From the NCBI GenBank assembly GCA_006503475.1, contig RSEH01000040.1, positions 124,001 to 188,000 of the forward strand: a DNA stretch of 64,000 bases, read 5' to 3'. The notes beneath the pieces are model-generated. The model had not been told where the DNA came from. It worked only from the letters and a program-made list of their open reading frames with translations, and made no database searches. Below, piece by piece: positions 17,245-56,600 of this stretch (position 1 is the first letter of the stretch; each line of letters starts with the position of its first letter). A program made the position numbers and the translations under genes. Source of the DNA: Stentor roeselii. Taxonomy: Eukaryota > Ciliophora > Heterotrichea > Heterotrichida > Stentoridae.

Positions 17245-19167
17245 TTATTCGCTGATATCTTCTTTAGTATCTGCAACAACTTCAACAATCTGGGAGTCAT
17301 TATTGACCTCTTTATTCTTTTCCTCAAACCTAACCTCTAACAACTTATACCTGGCTTCTAAATTCAAGATCTGCCTGTTCAGTTCCTCTAACTGATCAGC
17401 TGAATGTCCTCCCCCAAGTAAAACCCTTGTAGCAGGTGACAAAGATTTCCTTAAATTCACGAATTTTCTTTTGAACTTATTCAAATCCGAGCTTTCACCT
17501 CCAATATCAGGAGCGATATCATTAATAAGATGTTTAGTTCTCATATAATCATCAATAACATCTTTTCTACTTTTCATGATTTTTTCCCTTCTTTTCTTAG
17601 CTTCAAAAATAAGAGGAATTTTCAAGAACTCAAAATTATGAAGAATATGATTGAAAAGGTCATCTCTAAAAAGACTTAAAATTTCACAGTTTTTGATAGC
17701 TTTTATGGAAAGTTCCCTCAAATCACTGAAAAAAAGTTCAATATCTCCAAAGTAGTCTTCATCAGAAATCTCTTCATAAGGAATATCTTTCGAATTAATA
17801 GTTTCAAAATAAGTCAATTCTCCATTTTTCACAAAAAAGATCTCATCTGAATAGTCTCCTTTTTTAAAGATCACTTCTTTCGGTTTAGCTCGAAGAGGTC
17901 TCAAGTACCTTAAGACCACAGTGATGAATTCAATAGGTTTATCTTTAAAGAACCTGTTTTTTTTAATGAATTTTTTGTTCATCAAATAGTTAAGTTTTGT
18001 GGCGAGTTTCTTCGGAAGGTTTGCGATCATATTATTCCTTTCTTTACTAATTTTACTTTGGTCGTATTCCAAGTCGGATTTAATTCTTTTATAGAAGTTT
18101 TTGGTCAAGTTGTACTTTTTCGTGATGTCCTGCAAAACCAAAATCCTCGACTGTAACTTCGACTTTCTTTTCTCAATCTGCCCGATGACTGAAGTAATAG
18201 TTCCAATTGTATAAGAGTAAAAAAATACCCCTCCAAGCATGACAAAAATACAGTAAAACCTTTCAATGCTATTAGCAGGTACAATATCCCCATATCCAAC
18301 AGTGGTCAAAGTAGTAATCGTCCAGTAAAAACTTGCCAAATACTGTGAACCAATCGAACAATCATTAATCTTATACTTCACAATCCAATTTTCCCTCTCA
18401 TCTGAAATCTTCGCCATAAAATACCACAAACAAGACAAAACATGCACAATTCCCAAGAAAACCAAAACAAAATACAAAAGTCTTTCAATTCCCACTGAAA
18501 TCTTACTGAAACATTCAAGACACTCTAGAAGTTTATTCTTATTCTTCAAAAATTTCATAACTCTCATCAACTTCGCAATTTTCACCAAACGATAAAGTTT
18601 CGGAAGTCTTCCAAGTCTTGAAACATTTGAATATTGCCCTGAAAACATAAGAGAATAAGGAAGACTAGTGAAAATATCGATCAACATCCAAGACTTGGCG
18701 TAACTTTTAAAGATTTCTTTGTTACTTGTGACAAGAGTTTCCTCGTCTTTGTAATAAGCTGAGATGCAGTTGACGAAAACGTCGAATAAGAAGCAGAAGT
18801 CGATTACGAGGTCCAGGGAGTACCAGGCGTTGTCGTCTTGGTCGATGAAAGCGACTCGGAAGGGAGTGACTGTGACTGTGTAAAAAAGAAGCCTGAGGAG
18901 AGTTTACAGAAGGATGATCATGTCCCAGATTAATTTTATTGTGTCGTCTGGAAGAAGAATGTATTTAAGATGCTTGTATTCTTCCATTTCTCGTAAGTGA
19001 GATTGGGCTTCGTTCTGTTTGAATATCACCTCGTCTTCGTTTAGGATTTCTGAATCTTTGAATTCTGTACCGTTGTAACCTGGGCTTTCGTCACCTCCAC
19101 CGTTGTCACCTGGGTACTCTTGTGAGTCTTCTTGTAATGCCCTATTGAGATTAATAGCTCCTAACAT
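17245..19167 (-). CDS. Voltage-gated-type K+ channel with cyclic-nucleotide-binding domain, 635 aa, one 15-nt intron
   Basis: Six-helix channel of the EAG/HCN/CNG superfamily. The first helix is interrupted by the intron at 18893-18907; after splicing the frame reads through an S1-S3 region with D-L-V-I-D-F-C-F-L-F-D-V-F-V-N, an S4 with spaced Arg/Lys (R-L-V-K-I-A-K-L-M-R-V-M-K-F-L), S5, and the pore with T-T-V-G-Y-G-D, so K+-selective. A C-linker, a CNBD (about residues 430-545, containing G-D-Y-S-D-E-I-F-F-V-K-N-G-E-L) and a C-terminal coiled coil follow. In ciliates such channels shape membrane potential and ciliary beating. The ATG at 19167 lies only 6 nt after the IFT22 stop and in the same frame; a start further downstream, at the Met in R-E-M-E-E-Y, is possible. 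Confidence 0.88.
18893..18907 (-). other. 15-nt spliceosomal intron (K+ channel gene)
   Basis: On the minus strand GTAAACTCTCCTCAG, phase 2; retention gives TAA immediately. Splicing completes the S1 helix and joins it to the conserved S2-S3 region. Confidence 0.9.
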
Positions 19168-21058: not shown

Positions 21059-22159
21059 TTAATTATCCAAAAATATCTTGGTCGTATCATCCTTAAAACA
21101 ATTCCACCCAGTTGGCAAATTACTCCTCTCCTTCGCCAGAATCCCTTTAGGATTGACATAAATAGGAAGTCTAATAAAGCTCTGCTGTTTTCTAAAAGAC
21201 AAATCATACTGAACAGTGATCTGCAAGAAATACTTAGCCTTGATCAAATTAGTCTCAACACTTGAGGTATTTTTATCCCCTTCCGAGACCTTCAAGTCAC
21301 TTTTAAACTCAAAGTCTTTTTCATAGACCATAGCAGAAAAAGCAGCAATCCAAGTGACCCTATCCAGAGAACTAACTCTTTGCACAATAACACAATTTTT
21401 CTCTTTTCCACTGAATTCCATTTCCAAAACAACTTCAGCAATAACATGATTGATAGGCACAGCACAGTTGGAATTATCAGGAATAAGTTTATAACTAACA
21501 GTCTGATTAACAATAAGATCCTCATGAGTAACAACTTGAATAGTAAAACTCGAACTACCTTTATTCAAACAGCACAATCCTTGAATACTCTCAACACTCG
21601 AAGCTTCTTTTCGATGATTTTCTCGACTTTCCTTATTCCGAATGCAGACTTCACAGCTAGTTGAAAGACTTTCATCTCCTGAATACACAAGTTTCCCGAT
21701 CATCATGTAAGAAATAAGAGATTTTACGTAGTTTCCACTTTGGTCTTCTCCGGAATAAGAAAAAGTTGCAGGGATATGCGAAGGCAACTTATAAGAAAAA
21801 GGGAAGACATGTCGACCGGCAGTCATCAAACTGAGCTTGCGAAGGACTGACTCATGTGAAAAAATTTCTCGGGTTAAGTGAGAGGTCAGGACTTTTTGAC
21901 TGTAAATTTCAACACCTTCTCCTCCGCCGAAGAAGAGAGAAAGGGACAAGTTCGACATTTCACGAGGTAGGTCTAAGACCAGTTCGCCTTCTACTCGTTC
22001 ACCTGCCACGAAGTACTTGTAATCAAGCAACAGATTTAGACTTGGAGGGAGACTTTCCATTATCTCAGTCACTGCATTTTGAACGAATGTTTCACTTAAT
22101 GGAGGCTGGTCGTCTTCTTCTGCGAGGATGTCGTCGATTTCAGAACTGTCGAGAGACAT
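21059..22159 (-). CDS. Arrestin-like protein, 366 aa
   Basis: Two-lobe arrestin fold by pattern. The N-lobe has L-L-D-Y-K-Y-F-V-A-G-E-R-V-E-G-E-L-V-L and the G-R-H-V-F-P-F-S-Y-K-L-P-S-H-I-P-A-T-F-S-Y segment, which is the hallmark of alpha-arrestin/ARRDC proteins. The C-lobe strands run from about residue 200. There is no PPxY motif in the tail, so recruitment of a NEDD4-type ligase is not indicated. Likely a cytosolic adaptor for trafficking of membrane receptors or transporters. A cysteine cluster around C-I-R-N-K and G-L-C-C-L-N-K sits between the lobes. Confidence 0.8.
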   Translation of the reverse strand: MSLDSSEIDDILAEEDDQPPLSETFVQNAVTEIMESLPPSLNLLLDYKYFVAGERVEGELVLDLPREMSNLSLSLFFGGGEGVEIYSQKVLTSHLTREIFSHESVLRKLSLMTAGRHVFPFSYKLPSHIPATFSYSGEDQSGNYVKSLISYMMIGKLVYSGDESLSTSCEVCIRNKESRENHRKEASSVESIQGLCCLNKGSSSFTIQVVTHEDLIVNQTVSYKLIPDNSNCAVPINHVIAEVVLEMEFSGKEKNCVIVQRVSSLDRVTWIAAFSAMVYEKDFEFKSDLKVSEGDKNTSSVETNLIKAKYFLQITVQYDLSFRKQQSFIRLPIYVNPKGILAKERSNLPTGWNCFKDDTTKIFLDN

Positions 22160-22331: not shown

Positions 22332-23819
22332 ATGAAAAAAAACAAAGGGAAAAATCCTTGCACTTCTCTTTTTGATGGAAAAGAACGTCGTGTCCAAAAG
22401 GAACTTGAGAGAAAAGTGACATTAATAAACGAGAAAATTTCATCAATTCCTTCAATATCTCCAGAAATCGTTGAAAATGCAAGTCAATCAATAGAAAAAT
22501 TACTTCACAGTTACGAAAATCAAGTAATTTCAAGTGAAATCTGGATTTTCATCTCAATAGATTCATTTCAAACCTCAATCGAAGAACGTGACAACCCAGA
22601 CCTCTCTTCAAAGCCTTTCGCAATTTCAAGTAACTCTTTAATCCAGTCCTTCAACTCACTCGCTGCATCCTTTTCACTAAAGCCTTCAATGCCAGAGTTC
22701 CAAGCCTTAAGTCTTTGCAAAGACCTTGAAATCCTCATCGAAAATCCCTTAAAATACAAAACAGAAAGTTTAAAGCTAAAAGAAATTTTCACTACTTACG
22801 ACCCGTCCTTCGAAGAAACAGGTCTCGACGAAGCCGCCCTTTTCGTAACAACTTTCCTCAAAAGAAAATGCATGGACACTGACACCGGCAGAGAAGCACT
22901 TGCCCAGGAAATTCGAAGAAAAATCTGGAATGATTTAAAACTTCCTAGTTCCGCAGGTGTCGCCTGTAATAAAACCCTTGCTAAAATCGCTTGTCAAGTC
23001 AATAGACCAAATCGACAATTTTATCTAAGACCTGAAAATTCTAGAAAATTTATGAAAAATTTATGGATTAGAGATAATCCTTGTTTTACGAAAAATGATG
23101 GAAAATTGTTGGAAATGCTTGAGTTTAAAACTTGTGGACATCTTGTTGAGAGAAGTTTAGAAGTTTTTTTTGGGTTTAATGAAATTGCTTTGAAGAAGTA
23201 TCTAAAAATCGCATTGGGTGTTGGGGAATTTAATCATTTTAAACCGAAAAAAGAAAAGGGATGTTTAGCTGCTAGTAAAAGTTTTGAACCTTTGGACCAG
23301 GAAGAGGTTTTAGAGGAAAAGTTGAGGGAAATGGCTGATGGGCTTGAGTTTGAGTTGAAGAAGAATAAGGTTAAGGGAAAGGGAATTGAAATCAGCTTGA
23401 AGAATGTGAAGTATGAGACGAAGATTCGTAGGGAAGAGGCGAAACATTATTTTTTGGATGGTAAAGGACTTTTTGATTTAGCTGTTACTTTGCTTAGGAT
23501 GTTTTATCCTGTTCAGCCTATTAGGGGAATTACTTTGAAGGTCTGGAAACTTAAAGAGATTAAGGAAGAGTTTTCTAAAGAATTGGCTATGAAGGGAAGG
23601 ATTAGAAATGATAATGAATTTCAGAAAATGTTTCTTTATCATAGCATTGTTCCTAATAATGCTGTTCCGGTTGAGAGTGATGGGAAGAAAAAGAAGAAAG
23701 GAAATAGTTATGAATGCTCAGTCTGTAAACAGTGGTTTAATGGTAGAGAAACTGATGCTAAGACTCATAAGAAGTACTGTCAAGGACAAAGAAACTATTT
23801 CAAAAGTTTAAGTGAGTAG
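22332..23819 (+). CDS. Pol kappa-lineage Y-family DNA polymerase with degenerate active site, 495 aa
   Basis: The order of domains is that of DNA polymerase kappa: N-clamp (residues about 13-65), palm/fingers (70-205), thumb (205-275), little finger (about 285-400) and a C-x2-C...H-x3-C UBZ-type finger near residues 462-484. The family's D-M-D-A-F-Y-A is S75-I-D77-S-F-Q80-T here, so the first metal-binding Asp is Ser and the steric-gate aromatic is Gln. The usual N-Y-x-A-R-R-F-G segment is F-N-S-L-A-A-S-F-S (107-115), losing the Tyr and Arg that hold dNTP phosphates. L-D-E-A (165-168) keeps the other acidic pair. The thumb hairpin G-I-G is lost. The frame is intact and ends in TAG. Probably a non-catalytic scaffold (inference). 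Confidence 0.8.
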   Translation: MKKNKGKNPCTSLFDGKERRVQKELERKVTLINEKISSIPSISPEIVENASQSIEKLLHSYENQVISSEIWIFISIDSFQTSIEERDNPDLSSKPFAISSNSLIQSFNSLAASFSLKPSMPEFQALSLCKDLEILIENPLKYKTESLKLKEIFTTYDPSFEETGLDEAALFVTTFLKRKCMDTDTGREALAQEIRRKIWNDLKLPSSAGVACNKTLAKIACQVNRPNRQFYLRPENSRKFMKNLWIRDNPCFTKNDGKLLEMLEFKTCGHLVERSLEVFFGFNEIALKKYLKIALGVGEFNHFKPKKEKGCLAASKSFEPLDQEEVLEEKLREMADGLEFELKKNKVKGKGIEISLKNVKYETKIRREEAKHYFLDGKGLFDLAVTLLRMFYPVQPIRGITLKVWKLKEIKEEFSKELAMKGRIRNDNEFQKMFLYHSIVPNNAVPVESDGKKKKKGNSYECSVCKQWFNGRETDAKTHKKYCQGQRNYFKSLSE

Positions 23820-24470: not shown

Positions 24471-25625
24471 CTAATTAGATTTTTCCTTTAGCTTAGCCTG
24501 GAAAAGGGCATGAGAAAGGACAGCACCTCTAAGTTCCATATCCCTAATCTCCGCCTTAAGCACCTTGAAAGCTTCTTTAATCCCCTGCAAAGGCGAGTTA
24601 TTCGTGACGACTTTTCCTTGTCTATCAATTTTATCCTGAATCTCTTCAATCCTCTCATTAATCTGCTGTAACTGACTTGAAAGTTCCGCAACATTTTCAT
24701 TTGACTGTTTATACCTCAATTGAACCTCATTAAGCGAATTTGCCTGAACTCGATAATTTCCAGTGATTTCGCCCATCGAGGTATTAATTTTCCTCTCTTG
24801 TGCCGAGATACGTTCAAGACATTTATTGAGATCATCTGCGATTCTCTTCAACTTCGCTTCAGTTTCTGGAAGTTCCTTTAAAATATTCGCTTTAAGCTGT
24901 TTTGTCTGCTCCAAATGTAATCGCCATTCACGAGAGTCTCCTCCTGTCGGGTCTGCTGCGAACTTAAGCCGGGGGCCGACTCTTTCAACTTCTAAAAGCC
25001 ATTCATTCGGATCGACTGAAGACCAGATAGGCGCGTTGTCTGCTTCGTTTTCTTCTTCGGCGACAGGCTGGCCTGCTTTGACTTCAGCGAAAACGGCTTC
25101 TTCGAAATCGTCTTCTTCTATCAGGTTGTCTTCTAAGTCGTCGTCTTCTCCTCCGATGACTTCGCCTTGGATTTCTTTTTCTTTTGGAAAGACCGGCTTT
25201 GAAAACTTGACCTTTTTTGACTGAAGTGCTCGCTTTGCTAGGGATAAGAGAATCAGACATGGAGCTTCACCGACTCCTGATCTTAACTTTTGAGGAGGAA
25301 AGTCAAGGTTTAGACCGAGTTTTGATAGTTCTACGGTTATGTTGTTCGCGATTGTTCCAGGATCGTCGTACTTGTTGAATGAGGCGGAGGCACCGTTTAA
25401 GGAGAGAAGCCATGTGAAGAGAGCGGTGAAGTATTGGAAGTTGTCTTGAGAGGATACTGAAGCACTGGTAAAGTGGCATCTGGTTAGTGGACGGAAACCT
25501 TTGGAGGATAGGAACGTTTCTTCATAGTTCAGAACTTTAAGTATATCGATAAGTTCTTCAACCATCAATCCAGGATCATTCTGAGGCCCCGCTGCGCCTT
25601 TTTCACCTTCATCTTGTTCAGCCAT
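24471..25625 (-). CDS. IFT57: IFT57 (IFT-B2 subunit), 384 aa
   Basis: N-terminal calponin-homology-like domain (residues about 20-130, with F-Q-Y-F-T-A-L-F-T-W-L-L) and an acidic linker rich in Asp/Glu (about 160-200). Next comes the diagnostic W-L-L-E-V-E-R-V-G-P-R-L-K motif with R-L-H-L-E-Q, then a long coiled coil (about 240-370) that in the family pairs with IFT20. It acts in the peripheral IFT-B complex during ciliary assembly. The open frame has an earlier ATG at 25655, which would add M-I-G-I-F-I-F-E-S-Y. I prefer the ATG at 25625 because the family begins with a polar region. Stop TAG. Confidence 0.9.
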   Translation of the reverse strand: MAEQDEGEKGAAGPQNDPGLMVEELIDILKVLNYEETFLSSKGFRPLTRCHFTSASVSSQDNFQYFTALFTWLLSLNGASASFNKYDDPGTIANNITVELSKLGLNLDFPPQKLRSGVGEAPCLILLSLAKRALQSKKVKFSKPVFPKEKEIQGEVIGGEDDDLEDNLIEEDDFEEAVFAEVKAGQPVAEEENEADNAPIWSSVDPNEWLLEVERVGPRLKFAADPTGGDSREWRLHLEQTKQLKANILKELPETEAKLKRIADDLNKCLERISAQERKINTSMGEITGNYRVQANSLNEVQLRYKQSNENVAELSSQLQQINERIEEIQDKIDRQGKVVTNNSPLQGIKEAFKVLKAEIRDMELRGAVLSHALFQAKLKEKSN

Positions 25626-25767
25626 ATATGATTCAAATATGAAGATTCCAATCAATCCCTAAAGAAAAATGCTAAAAATCCATAAGCCCAAACCCTCCAA
25701 ATCCAAACATCAAAAAATCTTCATCACAATAAAACAATCCCATTACTCCCCCCTAAACTCTAAATAA

Positions 25768-44665: not shown

Positions 44666-47600
44666 CTAAACCTTAAACCACTTCCTCATGATCATGACAA
44701 CACTTTCACAAATAACGAGTTCAGTAAAAACTCCAGAAAGGAAGTTGATATACCAAAGCTCTTCACATTTCAAGAAGTACATCGCGATAATACTACCACT
44801 CATCATCAAACCATTAAGAGCCACAAGTAAAACTTTAAAAACCCTCGAATTCACTTGTTTTCGCATCATCAAAACCTCCACCCAGGCCAAAGGCATGACA
44901 GTAAAAGCACTGATAACACCAGCAAGTCCCAAGTAAGCATCTCCAAACTGCATCAAGGCACTTTGAACAGGAATTCCAACAACAACATTAGAAAAAACAG
45001 TTAAAATCGCCAGATAAATCGGAACTTGCTGATTTTTCAAGAAAACACTGACAAACAAGTGCTTTTCAAAAATATTTTCTTTCTCAACTTGACCCTTGCC
45101 GCTTTTTTCTCTTATTTTTTCAGCCTCTTCATCGATATAGCTTCTTGAAGTCTCTAATCCCTTTTTTTCGTATTTTCCCTTTTTTTCGTATTTTCCCTTT
45201 TTATCTTTATTCTCAAAGTAAATGAGGAAAGGCAGACAAACAAGACAAAAACCGACAAAACTGATAACAAGATAAAACTTTTGATTGACGTTACTTTTCG
45301 CACTTTCCTGTAAAGTGACTCTATAAATTCCACTTTTAGAAACACTGACAGTGGCTCCTTTCTCTGCGCGTTGAACAATTTCGCAGTTTTGACTAACCCA
45401 GTCCGATTCCCAGATTTCACAACTCTCGATATCTCCTCCAAGTCCTTCAAACCGAGCAAGGCACCTTCCAGAAGCATTCATCAGATGCTCAGGAAGATAA
45501 ACATCATAAAGCGAGTCACTTTCAACCATCGGGTTCGCGACAAGGACCTGGAAAATCTTAAATCCTTCAACCACAGCAACTTGAAAGCGAATAAAAGCGT
45601 TTTCTTCGAAGCTAGTTTCATTTAAACTCACTTTCACAGAAGTCATTTCAATGTCCTTCAAATTTTCCATCATATCGAACATCTGAACGAGTTTTACCTT
45701 TGAAGAAGCGAGACTCACAGGTTCTAATCTGAAAAGTCTCGCAATTGAAGCGAAGGTCTTCAAAGCCAGAAGTGCCGTTGCTTGTGAGTCATCAAGAAGA
45801 GTCGCTTTTTCAACGACAAGGACTGCCTGATTCACTACCGGGTTCCAGATCTGCTGAAGTTCATCAAGATTTTTAATTAAGTGCTTTAGGTACTTTTCAA
45901 TCCGAGGCACGATAAGGGTCTTTTCTTGTGACTCATCAAGAAACAAGTTAAGAATAGAAGCCAGTTGTTCCACTGAAGTACTTGAAACCTCATCTTCTGC
46001 TTGATAATCAACCAGGTCCTGCCACAACAAATCAAGAAACTCAGAATCTGGCACAGTTTGCATCAAAGCAAAAATCACGGCAGTCGGTACTCCAAATAAA
46101 AGTTTATCATTTATGTAGTCTTCCAGGTGACTGTCTATTTCTTTCAGATGTCTCAAAGATGAAGAGATTGAAATAGAAACCGAGTAAGATTTACAATCAG
46201 ATAAAGAATCACAAGCTTCTCCTTTAATCCCAGTGACTTGATCAGGGAACTTCCTCGCTGAAAGGGTGTTGGTGGAAAAGGACCCGATTAAGAAAGGTCC
46301 TTTATTTGCCCTGAGTAATGAAAACTTGTAAGTCAACGGGTAGTCCTGGTTGTCCTGGTCGATGCAGTCGGAGACTGTAAAAGTGATGAGAGTCTTTTTG
46401 GAATAAGGCGGGTCTGGACTTGTCGAGGCTCCTGAGCAACTCGGTCCTGAATTGGTCGAAAACGTGAGACTTCCCCACATGGAGTACAAACCGTTCGTCA
46501 CTGTCAAGGTGAACGTGTAGGAAGTGCCTTGGTCTAAAGTTCCTCCTGGGATCTGGTAAATCGGTGAAGAGTTGACTCCGTTTAAAACTATGTTTGGAGA
46601 CCAGGTGTAAGTAATTTTTTCGAGGTAACCGGAAATGGAGTACTTTGCGAGAGATTCGAGACGCACAGTGATTGATGTTATCACCTTTTTGGAAGGACCT
46701 AGGACTGATAGACTTAGAGGGTTCAAATGGTCTATTGTGAATAAATGGGACTTGGATGCTGATCTACCGTCATTAGTCGAAACTGTCAAAATGATACTTA
46801 AAGTACTTGCAGAGTACGCCCTTAAATAACTGCTTAAAACAGTTAAAGTATTTCCAGTTTGAATCCAAACCTCTCCTGCCACTTTCCAAGAGAAAAACAA
46901 CAAAGTCTTATCAGGATCATTCGAGTCTCTCCCCGAGATCTTCAAGTCTTTCTGGTCACTAATCATCTGGTCCGACTTATCAGTGGTCACAACAAGTTCC
47001 GAAGCAACAACCTGAAGAAAAACTTCTGACGATCCTGGGATGTCTTCACTTGAAGTCTTGCAGATAGCTTGAAGTGCGACTGTGAAATTTCCTATAGACA
47101 ACCCGCCCGCCGAAATCCTTAAAGACTGTGCAGTCGAACTAATATCTAATGAAGCAATAGTCCAGGAATAACTCATTTTCCCAGAACACCCACAGAGGTC
47201 TAAAACAACAGGAGTGATTTTAACGGTACTCGACCTTCGCACCACCAGATTGGACCCTGAGTCTAAAGCTAATTTCATCGACTTCTCTGAAGAAACTGAA
47301 AGAGTGAGACTTTCTTTGTCTTTATTGCCGAACCTGTCAGAGACTGTCAAGGTTATCGTGTATTCTCCAGCGATTGAAACATTGAATGAAAAGAAAGACT
47401 TAGAACTGTTATCTTTATCTTCTGTCGACGCTTCCCAGGCGTACCCTGTGATACCGAATGAAGACCTGGAGCCTCCACTGTTATAGTTCATAGTGACCGT
47501 CGACTGCCCACAGGAAAGACTGACTCTTGTAATACCTTGAATCGCTGCTTTGATCATCGGTTGAACTGAGTACTCAATATAGAAACTTGCAACATTTTTC

Positions 47601-50600
47601 GCATTTGGAGGCTTTTCCAGAAGTAATAAAGAAGAAAATGTCAGAGAAGTTGATTCAGAAAGACTGAAATCTGAATCTAAATCAATTTGAAGAGTTCTCT
47701 TTCCGTTCAGCTTACATGTTGAGAGAGTCCCAAACAACTCTACAGTTGAAGTCTCGAAGAACTTCGAGCAGTTGAATGTGTTCAGAGGTTCTTTTATATC
47801 AAACAGGAAAATTATTTGGAAGAACTTGAACCCGCCTGACATCTTCTTAGAAAGAATGTCAAGTTCATCAGGGTACTGGTAAAATGCCTTGCAAGTACTC
47901 GCCTCTGGGTAATAAAAAGTTTCGCATTCTTTGCAAGTATCTTGCTGGTCACATTTGACACATTTTTCTATTACGCTGCTGCAAAGGACACAATTTGGCC
48001 CGTCTTTAAAGTAACCATCTTCGCAGATTTCACAAGACGGAGATGAACAACTCAAACAATTCGATGTGCATGGAAGGCAGGTTTCATTTGAATTGTAAAA
48101 TTTTGAAGCACAGCGGTCACAAAGAGTCCCGTTGTAGCCAGTCTCGCAGATATCGCAGGATATTGATGAGGTGCAGGTTATGCAGTGGCCAGCGCAAACT
48201 TCACATTGAGAAGTGGATAAGTAAAAGCCATTGTCGCATAGTGAACAGTTTGATTCACTACTGCAGGTTAAACATCCATTACTGCATTCTTCACAGTGAG
48301 TTTTAATATAATTGAAAAAATATCGCTTTTCACATTTGCTGCATTCGAAATTTGAGCAGTTTTCACATTTACCGAAACATGTTGAACAGTTAGTTGAACA
48401 TTCTAAACATTTTTCTGAGAATTTGTATGAGCCTTTATCACAGATTTCACATGAAGTTTTAGAAAGGCAGTCTTTACAGTAGTCAGAGCACTTTGAACAT
48501 GCTCCATCATCTAAATAATACCCTTTTTCACAGAAGGAACATTGAGATCTACCTGAACAATTCAAACACTTTGAGCTACATTTAATACATTCTCCATTCT
48601 CCAGAAAGTAACCTGATATGCATGAAGTACAATTACTTTCTGATACACAAGTCAAACATTTAGAATCACAAGATATGCAAGTGTGATTATTTAAATAATA
48701 ACCTTCTTCACAAAGACTACAAAATGATTCATTTGAACAGTTTTTACAATTTCCTAGACATTGTTGACAAGTTCCCATTTGAACAAAGAAACCAGTAGAG
48801 CAGACTTGACATTCTTCTTCATTTTCACAGAAGAGACAGTGACTTTTACAATTTAAGCAAAGTCCTGATTGTAAATAAAATGAAGGAGAACATAAAGTGC
48901 ATTTAGATGAAAAAGTGCAATTAAGACATCCAGTCTCACATTCAATGCACTTGCCAAGACCTTCATCAAGATAAAAGCTATCAATGCAACTGGTACAAAA
49001 TGAACTATTATAACACGAAGAGCAGTTCGAATTACAAGGAATACAAAAGCCAGAGTCCAAAAAGAACCCATTTTCACAAACTTCACAGAAACTTGCATTA
49101 AAACAACTTTTACAAGAATCTTCACATTTCAAACAACGATCTTCACTTAAGTAATACCCAATTTTGCAATTTTCACAAAAAGTAGAATTCGAACATACCC
49201 TGCAACTGAAATCGCAATGAGCGCATTTTACTTGAGAATCGATGAAAAATTCTTCATTGCACTCGATGCACTTTGTTTCTGAGCAAGTCTTGCAATTATC
49301 AAAGCATCTTGAACAATTTAAAGTGCAGGAAATGCAAGATCCTTGATCAATGAAAAATCCATTTTTACAGGAAAGACATTCGGCTTCTGAGCAATCAAGA
49401 CAGTGATCAAAGCACCTTGAACAGTTTTCAGAACATTTGAAACAAGTACCGTCATCAGATAAATGAAATCCTTCATCACAAATGGTACATGTTGTAGAGT
49501 TTTGGCATTTTTCACATGATTGAGGACATTTAACGCAGGATTTTTCTTCTAAATAAAATCCTTTATTACAAAAAGAACATTCTAAGCCATTCTCACAAAT
49601 TTCACAGTTGCTAATGCATTGAATACAAGATGACTCTCCTAAATAATACCCTTTATTACATGTGTAGCAATCTTTCTCATCATAGCAAAATAAGCAAAAA
49701 TCACTGCATTTTTTGCATTTTCTTTCAAATTCGAAATCTAAGAAATATCCTGTTTCACAATCAAGACAAAAAGTATTATTTATGCAGTTGATGCAGTTAG
49801 GCTCACACTCAAGACATTTACCTGACTCCTGATAAAAAAAGTTATCACATTCAACGCATTCATTAAGACTAAAGCATAAAGAACAGTTTTGTGCACATTT
49901 TTTACAATTCTCTGAATGTAAATAAAAACCTGAACTACATTCAAGACATTGAGTTTTATTAGAGCAAATTTCGCAGTTTTCTTCGCATTCGAAACAGTTT
50001 GAAGAATCGAGGTAGTAACCTTCATAACATACTTGACAAGAGGTTTCGTTTTCACAGTTTTTACATCCAGACTGGCAGTCTAGGCACTTGTTATAGTTTA
50101 AATAGTAACTTTCATCACAGACATAGCAAAGTGATTCGTTTTTGCAATTTTTACAGCCTGTGTCACATTCAAGACAAGAATTTTCATCAAGATAATAACC
50201 CAGTTCACAAGAAGTACAAAAATAAGGACTTGTGCATGTTGCACATTCATATTCACACATAAAACATTCATTTTCAGATAAAAAGTATGAATCTTCACAA
50301 TCATAACACTTAGAATCTGAACAATTCTTGCATTGGTAAAAGCAGTTAGAACAGTTCAAAGAGCAGTTAAAGCAACTTCCATCTTCCAGGTAAAAGTTCT
50401 CAAGACAATAATCACAGTAACTGCTATTATCACAATTTTTACAAAATTCAGGACATTTAACGCAATTTCCATTTTCAAGTGTATATCCACTAAAGCAATC
50501 GAAACATTCAGACGAGTTGCAATAATAACAGTTAGGACTACATTCAAAGCATTCTCCAAGTTCTGTCTCATAGTATCCTTCCAAGCAATTGTAGCAAATT

Positions 50601-53600
50601 GAAGAATTATAACAATACTGACAACCAGGTGCGCAACTTAAACAGCTTCCTGAGTCTAAAGGATCTAGATAATAACTTGTGTTGCAATAATAACACATGC
50701 TGTTATTGACGCAGTTCAAACAATTTGGCCTACATTCAAAACATTTTCCTTCTTCATCATAAAAGCCTTCATAGCACTCTATGCAATAAGTCGTGTTTAA
50801 ACAGATATGACAGTCAGATGCACAAGGAAGACATTCATCAGATTCTAAATAATACATATTAAAGCATTCGGTACAGTTTGTATCATTTTGACAAGTTCTA
50901 CAATTCTCCTTACAGCTGAAACATTCACCTGACTTATCGTAAAAACCATCAGTGCATTGAAGACAGAAAGTTTTATTCAAGCAAATTCTGCAAATTTCAT
51001 CACACTCGATACATTCTCCTGAATCTAAATAATAACTATTTTCACAAGATGTGCAGAATGATTCATTGTAGCAGCTTTCACAGCCTTGATTGCACCATTG
51101 ACAGTAAGATTCATTCAGGTAAAAGCCTTTATTGCATTCTTTACATTGCGAGTAGTTATCACACTTAAGGCAGTTCCATATGCATTCTTCACACTGATTA
51201 TCTTCACTATAAAAATATCCATTATTACACTCAAGACATTCAGAATCTGAACAATTTTTGCATTCATAAAAGCACCTTGAACAATTTAAAGAGCAGTTAA
51301 AACATCTCTCATTTTCTAAATAAAATCCTTCTCTACAGGAATAACAAGAAGTATTTGAACTGCACTCTTCACAAAATTCAGAACATTTCGAGCAAGTTTC
51401 ATTATCTAAAAAGTACCCATAACTACACAAATCACAAATTGAAGAGTTTCGGCACTCATCACATCCAAAGCCACAAGTATGACAGAGATCATCATCAGGA
51501 TCCATAAAATACCCAACTTTACATTGATAGCAAAATGTAGAATTATAACAATCTTCACAGCCAACATTGCACTTGATGCAATCAGAGCCTTCATTTTCAA
51601 GATAATATCCTGAATAGCAAATATAACAATATGTTAAGTTTGCGCAGTATGAACAGTTTGGTTCACAGTGAAGGCAAAGACCTGAATCACTGTAAAATCC
51701 TTCATCACAAGAAAAGCAATAAGAACTATTCATGCATTCTGAACAGTTTTCAGGGCATTGATGACATGAGCCGGAATCAATGTAATAATTTGAATAACAT
51801 CGTTCACATTGTGAATGGTTAGAGCACAGAGCACATCCATTCATGCAGTCTTCACAAGTAGACCCATTCAGGTAATAGCTAGATTCACATTCTAAACAAT
51901 ACGAAAAGTTAAGACAGTTTCTGCAGTTGTAATCGCAATATTCACATTGAGATTCGTTTAAATAAAAACCGAATTTACATTCTACACAATAAGAATTGGT
52001 TAGACAAGAGACACACCCGTAAGGGCAATCATCACAGTGATTTTTATACAAGTAAAATCCGGTTTTGCAAAGAAGGCATGATGATTCATTAACGCATTTT
52101 GAGCAGCTCCAGTCACAATCCTCACATCTTTTATCATCTAGGTAATAGCTATCTTTACATTCGAAACACTTGATATCTGAACAGTTTAGACATCCTGTGT
52201 AACATTTTGAGCAATTTAAAGAACAGTTAATGCACTTGTTATCTTCCAGATAGAAACCTTCCTCACAAGAATAACAATGAGTTTCATTATAGCATTCTTC
52301 ACAAAAATCAAGGCAGTTGTCACAAGTGTTATTATTTAAGATGTACCCGTATTTACATTCATTACAGGAAGTTGAATTAGTGCAATCTATACAATTCGGA
52401 ATGCATTTCTGGCATTCTTTACTCTCATTCAAAAAATATCCATAAGAGCATTGTTCACAAAATGAAGAATTTATGCAATAATTGCAATTAGAAGTGCATT
52501 CTTTACATTTAAAAGTTTCGGAATCCAAATAATACCTGAACTCACACTCATTGCAATAAGTATTATTTTCACAATATACACAATTTTCTGGACAATCAAA
52601 GCAATCTCCATCTTTCAAATAGAATCGATAAAAACATTCTTGACAAGTTTGATCATCAGTGCATCTACTACAATGATCTTCACAAGGTAAACAGTCTCCA
52701 TCGTGCTCATAATATCTCCAATTGCATTCTTTACAATATGATTGATTTGTACATGTTAAACAGTTTTCCTCACATTCTTTGCAAAGTCCTTCATTCGCAA
52801 AACTCCCTTCATGACACAAAATGCAAAAGGTTCTATTAAGGCATTCTAAACAATCATCAATGATCTCTTCACAATCTAAGCAGTCAGTTCCATTATAATA
52901 GTATCCAGTCTCACATTCAAGACATACTGAATCATTAACACATGATTTGCAATAAGATACACAATCATAGCACGTTGATGAATTCAAATAAAACCCATTT
53001 CTGCATTCAAAGCATAAATTATAGTTTTCACATTTAAGGCAAGTCCATCGGCAATTTCTGCAACTTCCATCATCAAGAAAATAACCGTTTTTATCACATG
53101 AATAGCATTCAAAATCTGAACAATTAAGGCATCCTTCAAAGCACAAAGAACAGTTTGAGGAACAGTTAAAGCATGCACCACTATCATAATCTACATAATA
53201 GCCATATTGACATTCCTGACAATAAGTGCTATTTTTACAGTAATTACATGAATCAGGGCATTTCAAGCATTTTTCATTTGAAAGATAATAAGAAATACTG
53301 CATTCGTCGCAATTTGATGAGTTTGAACAACGGTCACAATACGAAATGCAACTGAGACATTTTCCATCATCTTCTGAATAATATCCACTTGAACATTCAT
53401 AGCAATATGAAGAATTCATGCAATCGGCGCATCCAATTTCACATTTTAGACACTTATTTTCTTCGTAATCCTCATAATAGCCATAATTACAAGAGTAGCA
53501 ATAAGTTTCATTGAAACAATTCGAGCAGTTATCTGGGCATTTAAAACAATCTCCATCTTTCTCAAAGAAACGATATGCACATTCATAACAAGTTTTATTA

Positions 53601-56600
53601 TCAGCACATTCATCACAATTTTCTTCACATTTAAGGCAGTCTGAAGCATTTTTATAATATCCCCAATAGCATTTTTCACAATATGATTCATTTGTACATT
53701 GTCTACAGCCAACTTCACAACTTTTACAAAGTCTTTCATCAATGAAATACCCTCCGTTGCACTCGATACAAGAGATTGCATTGAGACATAAATCACAATT
53801 ATCAATAAACCTCTCACAATAATCACAGTAATTTCCATTTAAGAACCAGCCACCATAGCAGTCGATACAAATTGTTCCATTCACACAGTTTCTGCAAGAA
53901 TAATCACATTCAAAGCATTTTGTTCCATTGATATAATATCCAGTCTCACATTCAAGACATACTGAATCATTAACACATGATTTACAATAATATCCACAAT
54001 CATAGCACTTTGATGAATTCAAGTAATATCCATCCCTACATTCAAAACATGAAGTAAAGTTTTCACATTTATAGCAATTCTCTTGACAATCACTACATTT
54101 CCCGTCATCAAGATAATAACCACTTTCTTCACATGAAAAACACTCAAAATCTGAACAATTAAGGCATCTTTCAAAGCACATAGAACAGTTTAATGAGCAG
54201 TTAATGCAAGCATCAGTATCATAATCATGATAAAATCCATATTGGCAACCATAACAATTAGTTTCATTTTCACAGTAGCTACAAAAATTAGGGCATTTTA
54301 AGCATGTGTCATTAGAAAGGAAATAATTTTTATTGCATCGATAGCAGTTTGATGAGTTTGAACAATATTTGCAACCCAAAATGCAATTTAAACACTCTCC
54401 ATCATTTTCTACATAAAATCCATCTGAACATTCATAGCAGTAAGAAGAATTTATGCAATGATCACAGCCTAGCCCGCATTCTACACAATCATTGTCTTCA
54501 TAATCTTCATAGTACCCGATTTTACAAGAGGAACAATAAGTTTCATTTAAACAATCCGAACAGTTTTCCGAGCATTTAAAGCAATCATCGTCTTCAAGAT
54601 AATAACCATAATTACAATAAATACAGGTTTGACTATCAGAGCATTCCCCACAATTTTCCTCACAGTGTAAACAATCTCCAGCATCCTGGTAATATCCCCA
54701 GTAGCATTTTTCACAATAAGATTCATTTTTACATCTGTTGCAAACATCTTCACACCTTCTGCATTTTCCAGAATCAAGAAAATAATCATATAAGCAATCA
54801 ATACAAAAAGTGCCATTAAGACAATTAGAGCATCCATAGTTATCTCTATCACAGTAAATGCAAGTGGATTCATTTAAGTAAAAACCATAAAAACAATCAA
54901 TGCAAGTGTCTTCATTTAAGCAGTTTTTGCAAGGATATTCACAACTAAAGCATTCTGAACCATTGAGATAGTATTCTGATTCACATTCAAGACAAAAAGA
55001 ATCATTAATGCAGGATTTGCAGTAATATTCACAACTAAAGCATTCTGAACCATTGAGATAGTATTCTGATTCACATTCAAGACAAACAGAATCATTGATG
55101 CAGGATTTGCAGTGATATCCACAATCTTGGCATAAAGAAGAATTCAAGAAATATCCATTCCTGCACTTAAGACATTCAGAATCATTAGTGCATTTCGAAC
55201 AACCCCAGTTACATTCATCGCAGTTTCCATCATTTAAGTAAAAATTATCATCACATTTGAAGCATTGCAGATCAGAACAATTAAGACATCCATAATAGCA
55301 TCTTGAGCAATCTTGAGAACAGTTGAAACAAAGTCCATCATTTTGATAAAATCCTTCTTGGCAAGAATAACAAATTAAATTATTTTCACAGTAATTACAA
55401 AAATCAGGACATTTTTCACAGAAATCATTTTCAATATAATACCCGTCTTTACAGTAATAACAATAAGTGGAATTAGTGCAAGAATCACAATTAGAGCTGC
55501 AATTAAGACATTCTCCTAGGTCATCCAAGTAAAATCCTCTGAAGCAATCATAACAATAGGAAGAGTTATGACAATAAGAACAACCTTGACTGCACTTAAA
55601 GCAAATTTCTGATTCTAAGTAGTATCCATTGTAACAATCTTCGCAGTAAGTTTCATTCAAACAGTAAGAGCAGCCATCTCCGCATTTTAAACAAAGACCA
55701 TTTTCTTCGTAGTAACTATGTTCGCATGAATAGCAAAAACTCTCATTTGCGCAAGAATTACAGTTTTTTTGGCATTTTAGACACTTTCCATTGTCATAAT
55801 AGAATCCGTAGTCACATTCAATACATATTGTCGAATTTAAGCAGTATGAGCAACCCCAGCCACAGCTTGAGCAATAATCAGAATCGAAGTAATAACCTTC
55901 TACGCATTTAATACAAAATGATTCATTTTGGCAGGTCTTACAAGGATGAGAGCAGTTAAAACATTCTGAGTTGTTGAAGTTATAGGTTCCTTCGAAGCAT
56001 TCTATGCAGTAAGTGTCGTTTAAACATGTTTTACAAAAATATGTGCAACTTTGACAAATACGGTTATTTAAGTAATAGCCTGATCTACAAGTTGTGCATG
56101 TTGTATCGTCTTCACATTCATTGCAATTCCAATTACATTCAGAACATCTTTTATTTTCCAAATAATACCCTCCAGCACATTTGGTACATTCAAGGTCTGA
56201 GCAATTGAGACAACCATAATAGCAACCCATGCAATCAAAACTACAGTTTCTACATATTCCTTCATCTTCATAAAATCCATCTTTGCAATTATAACATTTT
56301 GTGCTGTTATAACAATAATCACAATTTTCAGAGCATTCAAGACATGAACCTTTATTCAAATAATACCCAGAAATACAATCATAGCACTCAGATAAATTAT
56401 AACAGTATCCACAATGATTACTGCATTTCTGACATTGCATTAAATCATCTTCATAATATCCACTTGAACAATAATTGCAAGATGAATTACTATCACAATA
56501 TTTGCAACCTTCACTGCAAGGAAGACATTCTGAAGTTTTCGAATTTAAATAAAAGTATGAGTTACAGTCATAGCAAACAGAACTGTTTAAACATTCTCGA

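Follow-up and report, generated by a model that had tools for sequence, protein, structure and literature searches.

Y-family DNA polymerases without catalysis are known in bacteria, where ImuB, a component of the mutasome, and other inactive Y-family homologs (iPolY) have been described (PMC6511836, PMC12926913). In ciliates, a similar pattern is seen in an unrelated transposase family: the PiggyMac-like proteins of Paramecium and Blepharisma are dead paralogs standing beside an intact one, for which purifying selection has been reported and whose knock-down in Paramecium leads to retention of internal eliminated sequences (PMC9942806). Trypanosomatids carry multiple Pol kappa genes, and the word "inactive" is absent from that text (PMC7576959); among the matches listed in the openly licensed literature, there was no inactive eukaryotic Pol kappa paralog. 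Here we analyzed a stretch of 64,000 nucleotides from the ciliate Stentor roeselii (positions 124,001 to 188,000 of contig RSEH01000040.1; hereafter the window), in which the gene at 22332..23819 encodes a Pol kappa-like protein with a dismantled active site (the window protein). An earlier note on this DNA had regarded such a Y-family pseudopolymerase as an undescribed kind, which is too strong because inactive bacterial homologs are known; the claim is wrong at the level of the family but may stand for eukaryotic Pol kappa. We give about an even chance to the hypothesis that this gene is a kappa-type duplicate which lost catalysis and was retained as a non-catalytic recruiting or structural partner in damage tolerance or repair.

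The gene (G000:C295:146332-147819 in a genome assembly of 44.4 Mb and 522 contigs) is a single open reading frame (ORF) of 495 codons spanning exactly 22332..23819 on the + strand, as are all features described for it below, with an ATG start, a TAG end and zero internal stops in the standard code, so that the intact length noted earlier is confirmed. A Pfam scan of the translation detected IMS (E=3.2e-28, aa 76-221) and IMS_C (E=2.2e-9, aa 314-409), and the nearest solved relative is human DNA polymerase kappa (E=5.8e-43, 2oh2 chain). These two domains, together with a predicted palm-fingers-thumb-little finger fold, place the window protein in the Y family.

In human Pol kappa the catalytic residues are D107, D198 and E199, and Y112, T138, Y141, R144 and K328 lie near the incoming deoxynucleoside triphosphate (dNTP) (PMC2686167), with a steric-gate role for the position of Y112 (PMC6695781). 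Human residue numbers were assigned by alignment to human Pol kappa (2oh2 chain index + 18) and from PMC2686167. At the three catalytic positions the window protein has S75 (22554..22556) where the first metal-binding Asp would stand, followed by the retained D166 and E167 (22827..22832), which leaves the set of three carboxylates incomplete; D77, adjoining S75, is retained. The dNTP-binding positions are occupied by Q80 (the steric gate, 22569..22571), S106, S109, A112 and R225 (for the triphosphate-binding Lys, 23004..23006), none of the five being identical to human and two being conservative. In total, 2/8 active-site residues are kept and 6/8 are lost, including two conservative changes (T to S and K to R). 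The segment N-Y-x-A-R-R is replaced by N-S-L-A-A-S (aa 108-113, 22653..22670), in which S109 and A112 stand at human Y141 and R144 and both finger triphosphate ligands are lost. The dismantled catalytic centre claimed in the earlier note, with Ser at the first metal Asp, Gln at the steric gate, no N-Y-x-A-R-R and a kept L-D-E-A pair (D166-E167), is therefore present in the sequence, from which we infer that the window protein is catalytically dead.

The earlier note had proposed searching the same genome for a catalytically intact DINB1, and three were found: when the whole assembly was searched for IMS, four candidates came up, all four of them matches, namely the window gene and loci on contigs C271, C522 and C98 (by which we name them), whose open frames of 488-524 aa each keep 8/8 active-site residues. 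C98 is a canonical Pol kappa in look: its thumb has G-I-G, its finger ends in HIDQC, and LTLDKFY at its C terminus resembles a PCNA-interacting peptide (PIP) box. Identity is 85.5% between C271 and C522, 45% between the window protein and C271, and 43% between the window protein and C522. Relatives outside this genome comprised 7 bacterial DinBs from genome contigs and 13 viral-contig loci found with a DinB alignment as query; 14 of these 20 loci were used for the tree and for a conservation panel, and 18/20 (without L031 and L032) for a further comparison. In the tree, the window gene is sister to C271/C522 with support 99, and the trio is separated from the rest with support 100; its branch length is 1.09, and those of the sisters are 0.34 plus 0.055 or 0.129. 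The panel consisted of 67 columns at least 87% conserved in the 14 bacterial and viral-contig DinBs plus C98, of which the window protein keeps 36, C271 48, C522 48, and C98, itself in the panel, 56.

The two sisters share with the window protein the same architecture, an altered G-I-G, a zinc finger without its ubiquitin-contacting Asp and a motif behind the little finger, but they differ from it in their complete active sites. At the thumb hairpin, the window protein has C-F-T (aa 251-253, 23082..23090) where canonical copies have G-I-G; this loss, also claimed earlier, is real but partly ancestral, as both sisters read S-G-I-T. The simplest reading of these alignments is that the Asp-less finger and the changed G-I-G date from the common ancestor of the trio and that only the window gene underwent the catalytic losses. 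A recent duplication from C271, hinted at by third-codon differences of 0.545, was rejected, as codon likelihood favoured the topology of the tree by about 45 log-likelihood (lnL) units. Where the amino acid is the same, codon matching is near saturation: the window gene shares 107 identical codons with C271 (expected 90.3, standard deviation (sd) 5.8), 65 with C98 (expected 53.5, sd 4.7) and 74 with C522 (expected 80.8, sd 5.6); the excess with C271 and C98 is, we infer, due to a shared local base skew. There is no local frame error, and an assembly artefact is unlikely, since the two alternative frames retain nothing of the lost motif (local scores 17 and 24, compared with 192 in frame, aa 61-135) and the four copies lie at separate loci.

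Outside the active site, conservation is uneven. The palm and fingers (aa 67-240, 22530..23051) have a high-confidence predicted fold, with predicted local distance difference test (pLDDT) blocks of 82-96 over aa 71-240, and of the sites common to both sisters, 63/94 remain in the palm (aa 138-240), 33/67 in aa 67-137 and 26/57 in the thumb. The little finger, or polymerase-associated domain (PAD; aa 306-405, 23247..23546), is retained as the earlier note held, with 48/81 such sites and the IMS_C match. The claim of a retained N-clamp was only partly upheld: two helices are predicted in the N-clasp (aa 8-66, 22353..22529) at residues 9-38 and 44-66 with low to moderate confidence (pLDDT blocks 40-76), and the alignment with human kappa begins at aa 7-10, but the sequence itself is weakly kept.

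The C-terminal C2HC zinc finger (aa 462-483, 23715..23780) is UBZ-like and has all four zinc ligands, C462, C465, H479 and C483; the earlier claim of a remaining ubiquitin-binding finger holds for these ligands only. In UBZ fingers, the Asp after the zinc-binding His forms a critical salt bridge to ubiquitin (PMC8526622), and here this position is Lys481 (H-K-K-Y-C), which makes ubiquitin binding in the known manner unlikely; both sisters lack the Asp as well (HTFQC and HTGKC), and it is found only in C98. Some fungal Pol eta fingers bind PCNA directly (PMC8784325), and by analogy a direct contact of this kind is conceivable for the window finger. Behind the PAD, the stretch at aa 428-441 (23613..23654), NEFQKMFLYHSIVP in the window protein and SEFENLFLNQSVRP in the sisters, is shared in an otherwise diverged linker, with 6/14 residues identical to C271. 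Its score was matched by 0/5000 shuffled linkers, the stretch having been selected after the alignment was inspected, and we consider it a candidate partner-binding motif. Human kappa has an internal PIP box soon after the PAD, near the same place (PMC8526622). The motif of the window protein does not match the PIP consensus, and no PIP box was recognized elsewhere in the protein. With the critical Asp gone and no PIP box seen, the binding to ubiquitylated PCNA that the earlier note had envisaged is unsupported in its known form. The window protein thus differs from Pol kappa, which has two UBZs, not only in its active site but also in having one finger without the ubiquitin-contacting Asp and no recognizable PIP box.

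If the gene were instead a decaying duplicate under relaxed constraint, which lost catalysis, acquired no new role and by chance still has an unbroken frame, one would expect features that are indeed present, namely a branch longer than those of the sisters and a badly eroded N-clasp, linker and zinc finger. However, retention of the post-PAD motif and of every zinc ligand argues against decay, and so do several analyses of constraint. Even for C271 against C522, synonymous sites are near saturation (172 identical codons, expected 162.8, sd 8.8), so that the ordinary synonymous rate is uninformative; a codon model gave a ratio of nonsynonymous to synonymous rates (omega) of 0.049 for the window branch and rejected omega=1 (2 dlnL 13.7). 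When neutral evolution was simulated from C271 until 6/8 active-site residues had changed, a median of 24 stops accumulated (5-95% range 13-34) and 0/400 runs were free of stops, whereas the real gene has none. Replacements were then compared with 200 neutral runs at sites where the sisters agree, with active-site positions excluded and simulated stops purged. Those in aa 66-405 are more conservative than neutral (mean BLOSUM score +0.21 vs -0.59, sd 0.14, 0/200), as are those in aa 67-137 around the lost site (0.48 vs -0.65, 0/200) and in the PAD (0.61 vs -0.55, 0/200). Hydrophobic retention over the whole core is also above neutral (0.90 vs 0.81, 1/200). Of the 158 positions at which the three paralogs all agree, those in the active site had changed more frequently (6/8) than the remainder (48/150), with a modest Fisher p of 0.02. 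Together, these comparisons fit a protein without catalysis that kept its fold, and we consider a decaying duplicate rather unlikely.

Several observations weigh on the other side, against retention for a non-catalytic role. The omega of the window branch is no different from that of the other branches (0.059) and comes from a codon model with saturated synonymous sites and some branch lengths at their bounds. The stop-codon argument holds only if most active-site changes were neutral, as stop-free runs numbered 60/400 when 1/8 residues had changed and 3/400 when 3/8 had. In the BLOSUM test, neither aa 1-65 (46/200) nor aa 138-240 (21/200) reaches significance, and hydrophobic retention falls short of it in each of the four sub-regions (20 to 81 of 200). 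Few sister-shared sites are kept in aa 1-66 (14/52), the aligned linker (3/19) and the finger region (6/25), and confidence of the structure model is low at the thumb end (54-79, aa 271-310), in the linker and in the finger. Part of the constraint signal may predate the catalytic loss, the periods before and after not being fully separable. Moreover, viral-contig scans gave zero relatives for the window protein as query and zero for an alignment of the four paralogs, and no orthologue of the window gene appeared in the viral and prokaryote collections. The observation of the earlier note is largely right apart from its ubiquitin-binding part, and its claim of selection for a non-catalytic role is supported by constraint beyond the absence of stops but not proven.

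In the scenario that we favour, a Pol kappa-type polymerase would have been duplicated within the lineage, and one copy would have lost DNA synthesis and stayed as a protein. The pseudopolymerase is predicted to fold as Pol kappa and probably still engages DNA and/or partners common to its two intact sisters, with contacts through the conserved palm, the little finger and the short motif after it, so that it could act as a recruiting or structural subunit without catalysis in damage tolerance or repair. Such a role would follow the logic of ImuB in bacteria and, among ciliates, that of the dead PiggyMac-like subunits. The same retained Pol kappa-type fold and PAD, in a genome with intact sisters, could also serve a negative regulator that blocks primer termini or clamp and partner sites and thereby restrains the error-prone active copies as a natural dominant negative, and for the dead PiggyMac-like paralogs of ciliates a competitive DNA-binding role has been considered (PMC9942806). 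In Pol kappa the N-clasp serves to lock the enzyme on DNA (PMC2686167); here it is eroded, and we regard such a regulator as unlikely, although a competitor and a positive partner are not separable by sequence.

REV1, which acts mainly as a scaffold, organizes translesion synthesis in eukaryotes. It is conceivable, but in our estimate very unlikely, that the window protein is a eukaryotic analogue of ImuB, in which the dead kappa copy took over the scaffolding of REV1 and bridges the active kappa paralogs, the clamp and Pol zeta. No convincing REV1 or Pol eta was found, the single IMS search having given four kappa-type loci only in an assembly of unknown completeness. Two weak REV1_C matches in the assembly, both below the cut-off, were discounted because their ORFs, read as a WD40-repeat and a coiled-coil-like protein, look unrelated. 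In the window protein itself, neither a BRCT nor a REV1 C-terminal domain was detected by the Pfam scan up to E=1. The assembly encodes a Pol zeta-like protein, nearest to the Pol zeta catalytic subunit (E 2.8e-139), and if the reading as a REV1 substitute were true, the dead kappa copy plus this subunit would parallel ImuB plus DnaE2. Least probable is that an unusual active site still lets the window protein work as a polymerase or nucleotidyl transferase, as D107 is among the three catalytic residues (PMC2686167) and the losses combine the first metal Asp with the steric gate and both triphosphate ligands of the fingers, even though D166, E167 and the adjacent D77 remain and mycobacterial DinB2 is active with a Leu steric gate, a non-aromatic gate alone being not lethal (PMC4176160).

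What the window protein is shown to share with ImuB and iPolY is the inactive Y-family core, a dead fold kept in the genome. The tree places the window gene inside a eukaryotic kappa-type lineage and gives it a separate origin, and whereas ImuB, which also has a RecA-NT motif and an ImuB-C domain, belongs to a mutasome cassette (imuA/dnaE2), the neighbours here are arrestin-like and IFT57 genes, with no mutasome context. If retention as a non-catalytic partner is true, eukaryotes, as bacteria with ImuB, can reduce a polymerase to a purely accessory role, and the window gene would be a natural separation-of-function mutant for the non-synthesis functions of the Pol kappa body. Dead paralogs of catalytic subunits matter in ciliate genome rearrangement (PMC9942806), and use of the same trick in repair synthesis would be testable.

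Other replication and repair genes were also noted in the assembly. PCNA_N gave clear matches at loci on C230, C252, C391 and C476 (two of them being L011 and L012) and a weak fifth on C11 with an internal stop, so several clamps stand beside several kappa paralogs. An 877-aa open frame at L039:82-2712 is nearest to Pol alpha (best stretch aa 507-622) and clearly diverged, with the DFSSLYP and YGDTDS motifs kept, and is possibly a divergent Pol alpha paralog. A HORMA search of the assembly gave one match. Alpha-tubulin is nearest to PDB sequences of Tetrahymena (6u0h and further entries), with a lead of only about 12 bits over the next groups, which together with the IFT57 gene of the window makes a ciliate plausible on sequence grounds; 15-nt intron-like strings, counted as a test for a heterotrich, gave no clear peak.

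Within the window, an arrestin-like ORF (21059-22159, -) lies 172 bases upstream of the pseudopolymerase gene in divergent orientation, and an IFT57 ORF (24471-25655, -) is its convergent downstream neighbour. A 4905-aa ORF (44666-59383, -) perhaps encodes a cysteine-rich repeat surface protein: the 1461 aa tested from its N-terminal part match the Giardia variant surface protein family (E 8.5e-47). In 11/12 tested ORFs (of 26 listed for the window; the sole exception being 17245-18687), GC skew at the third codon position climbs from the 5' to the 3' half on both strands. This rise, which can mislead comparisons of synonymous sites, may reflect transcription-linked mutation and is most extreme in 22332-23819 (-0.51 to +0.73).
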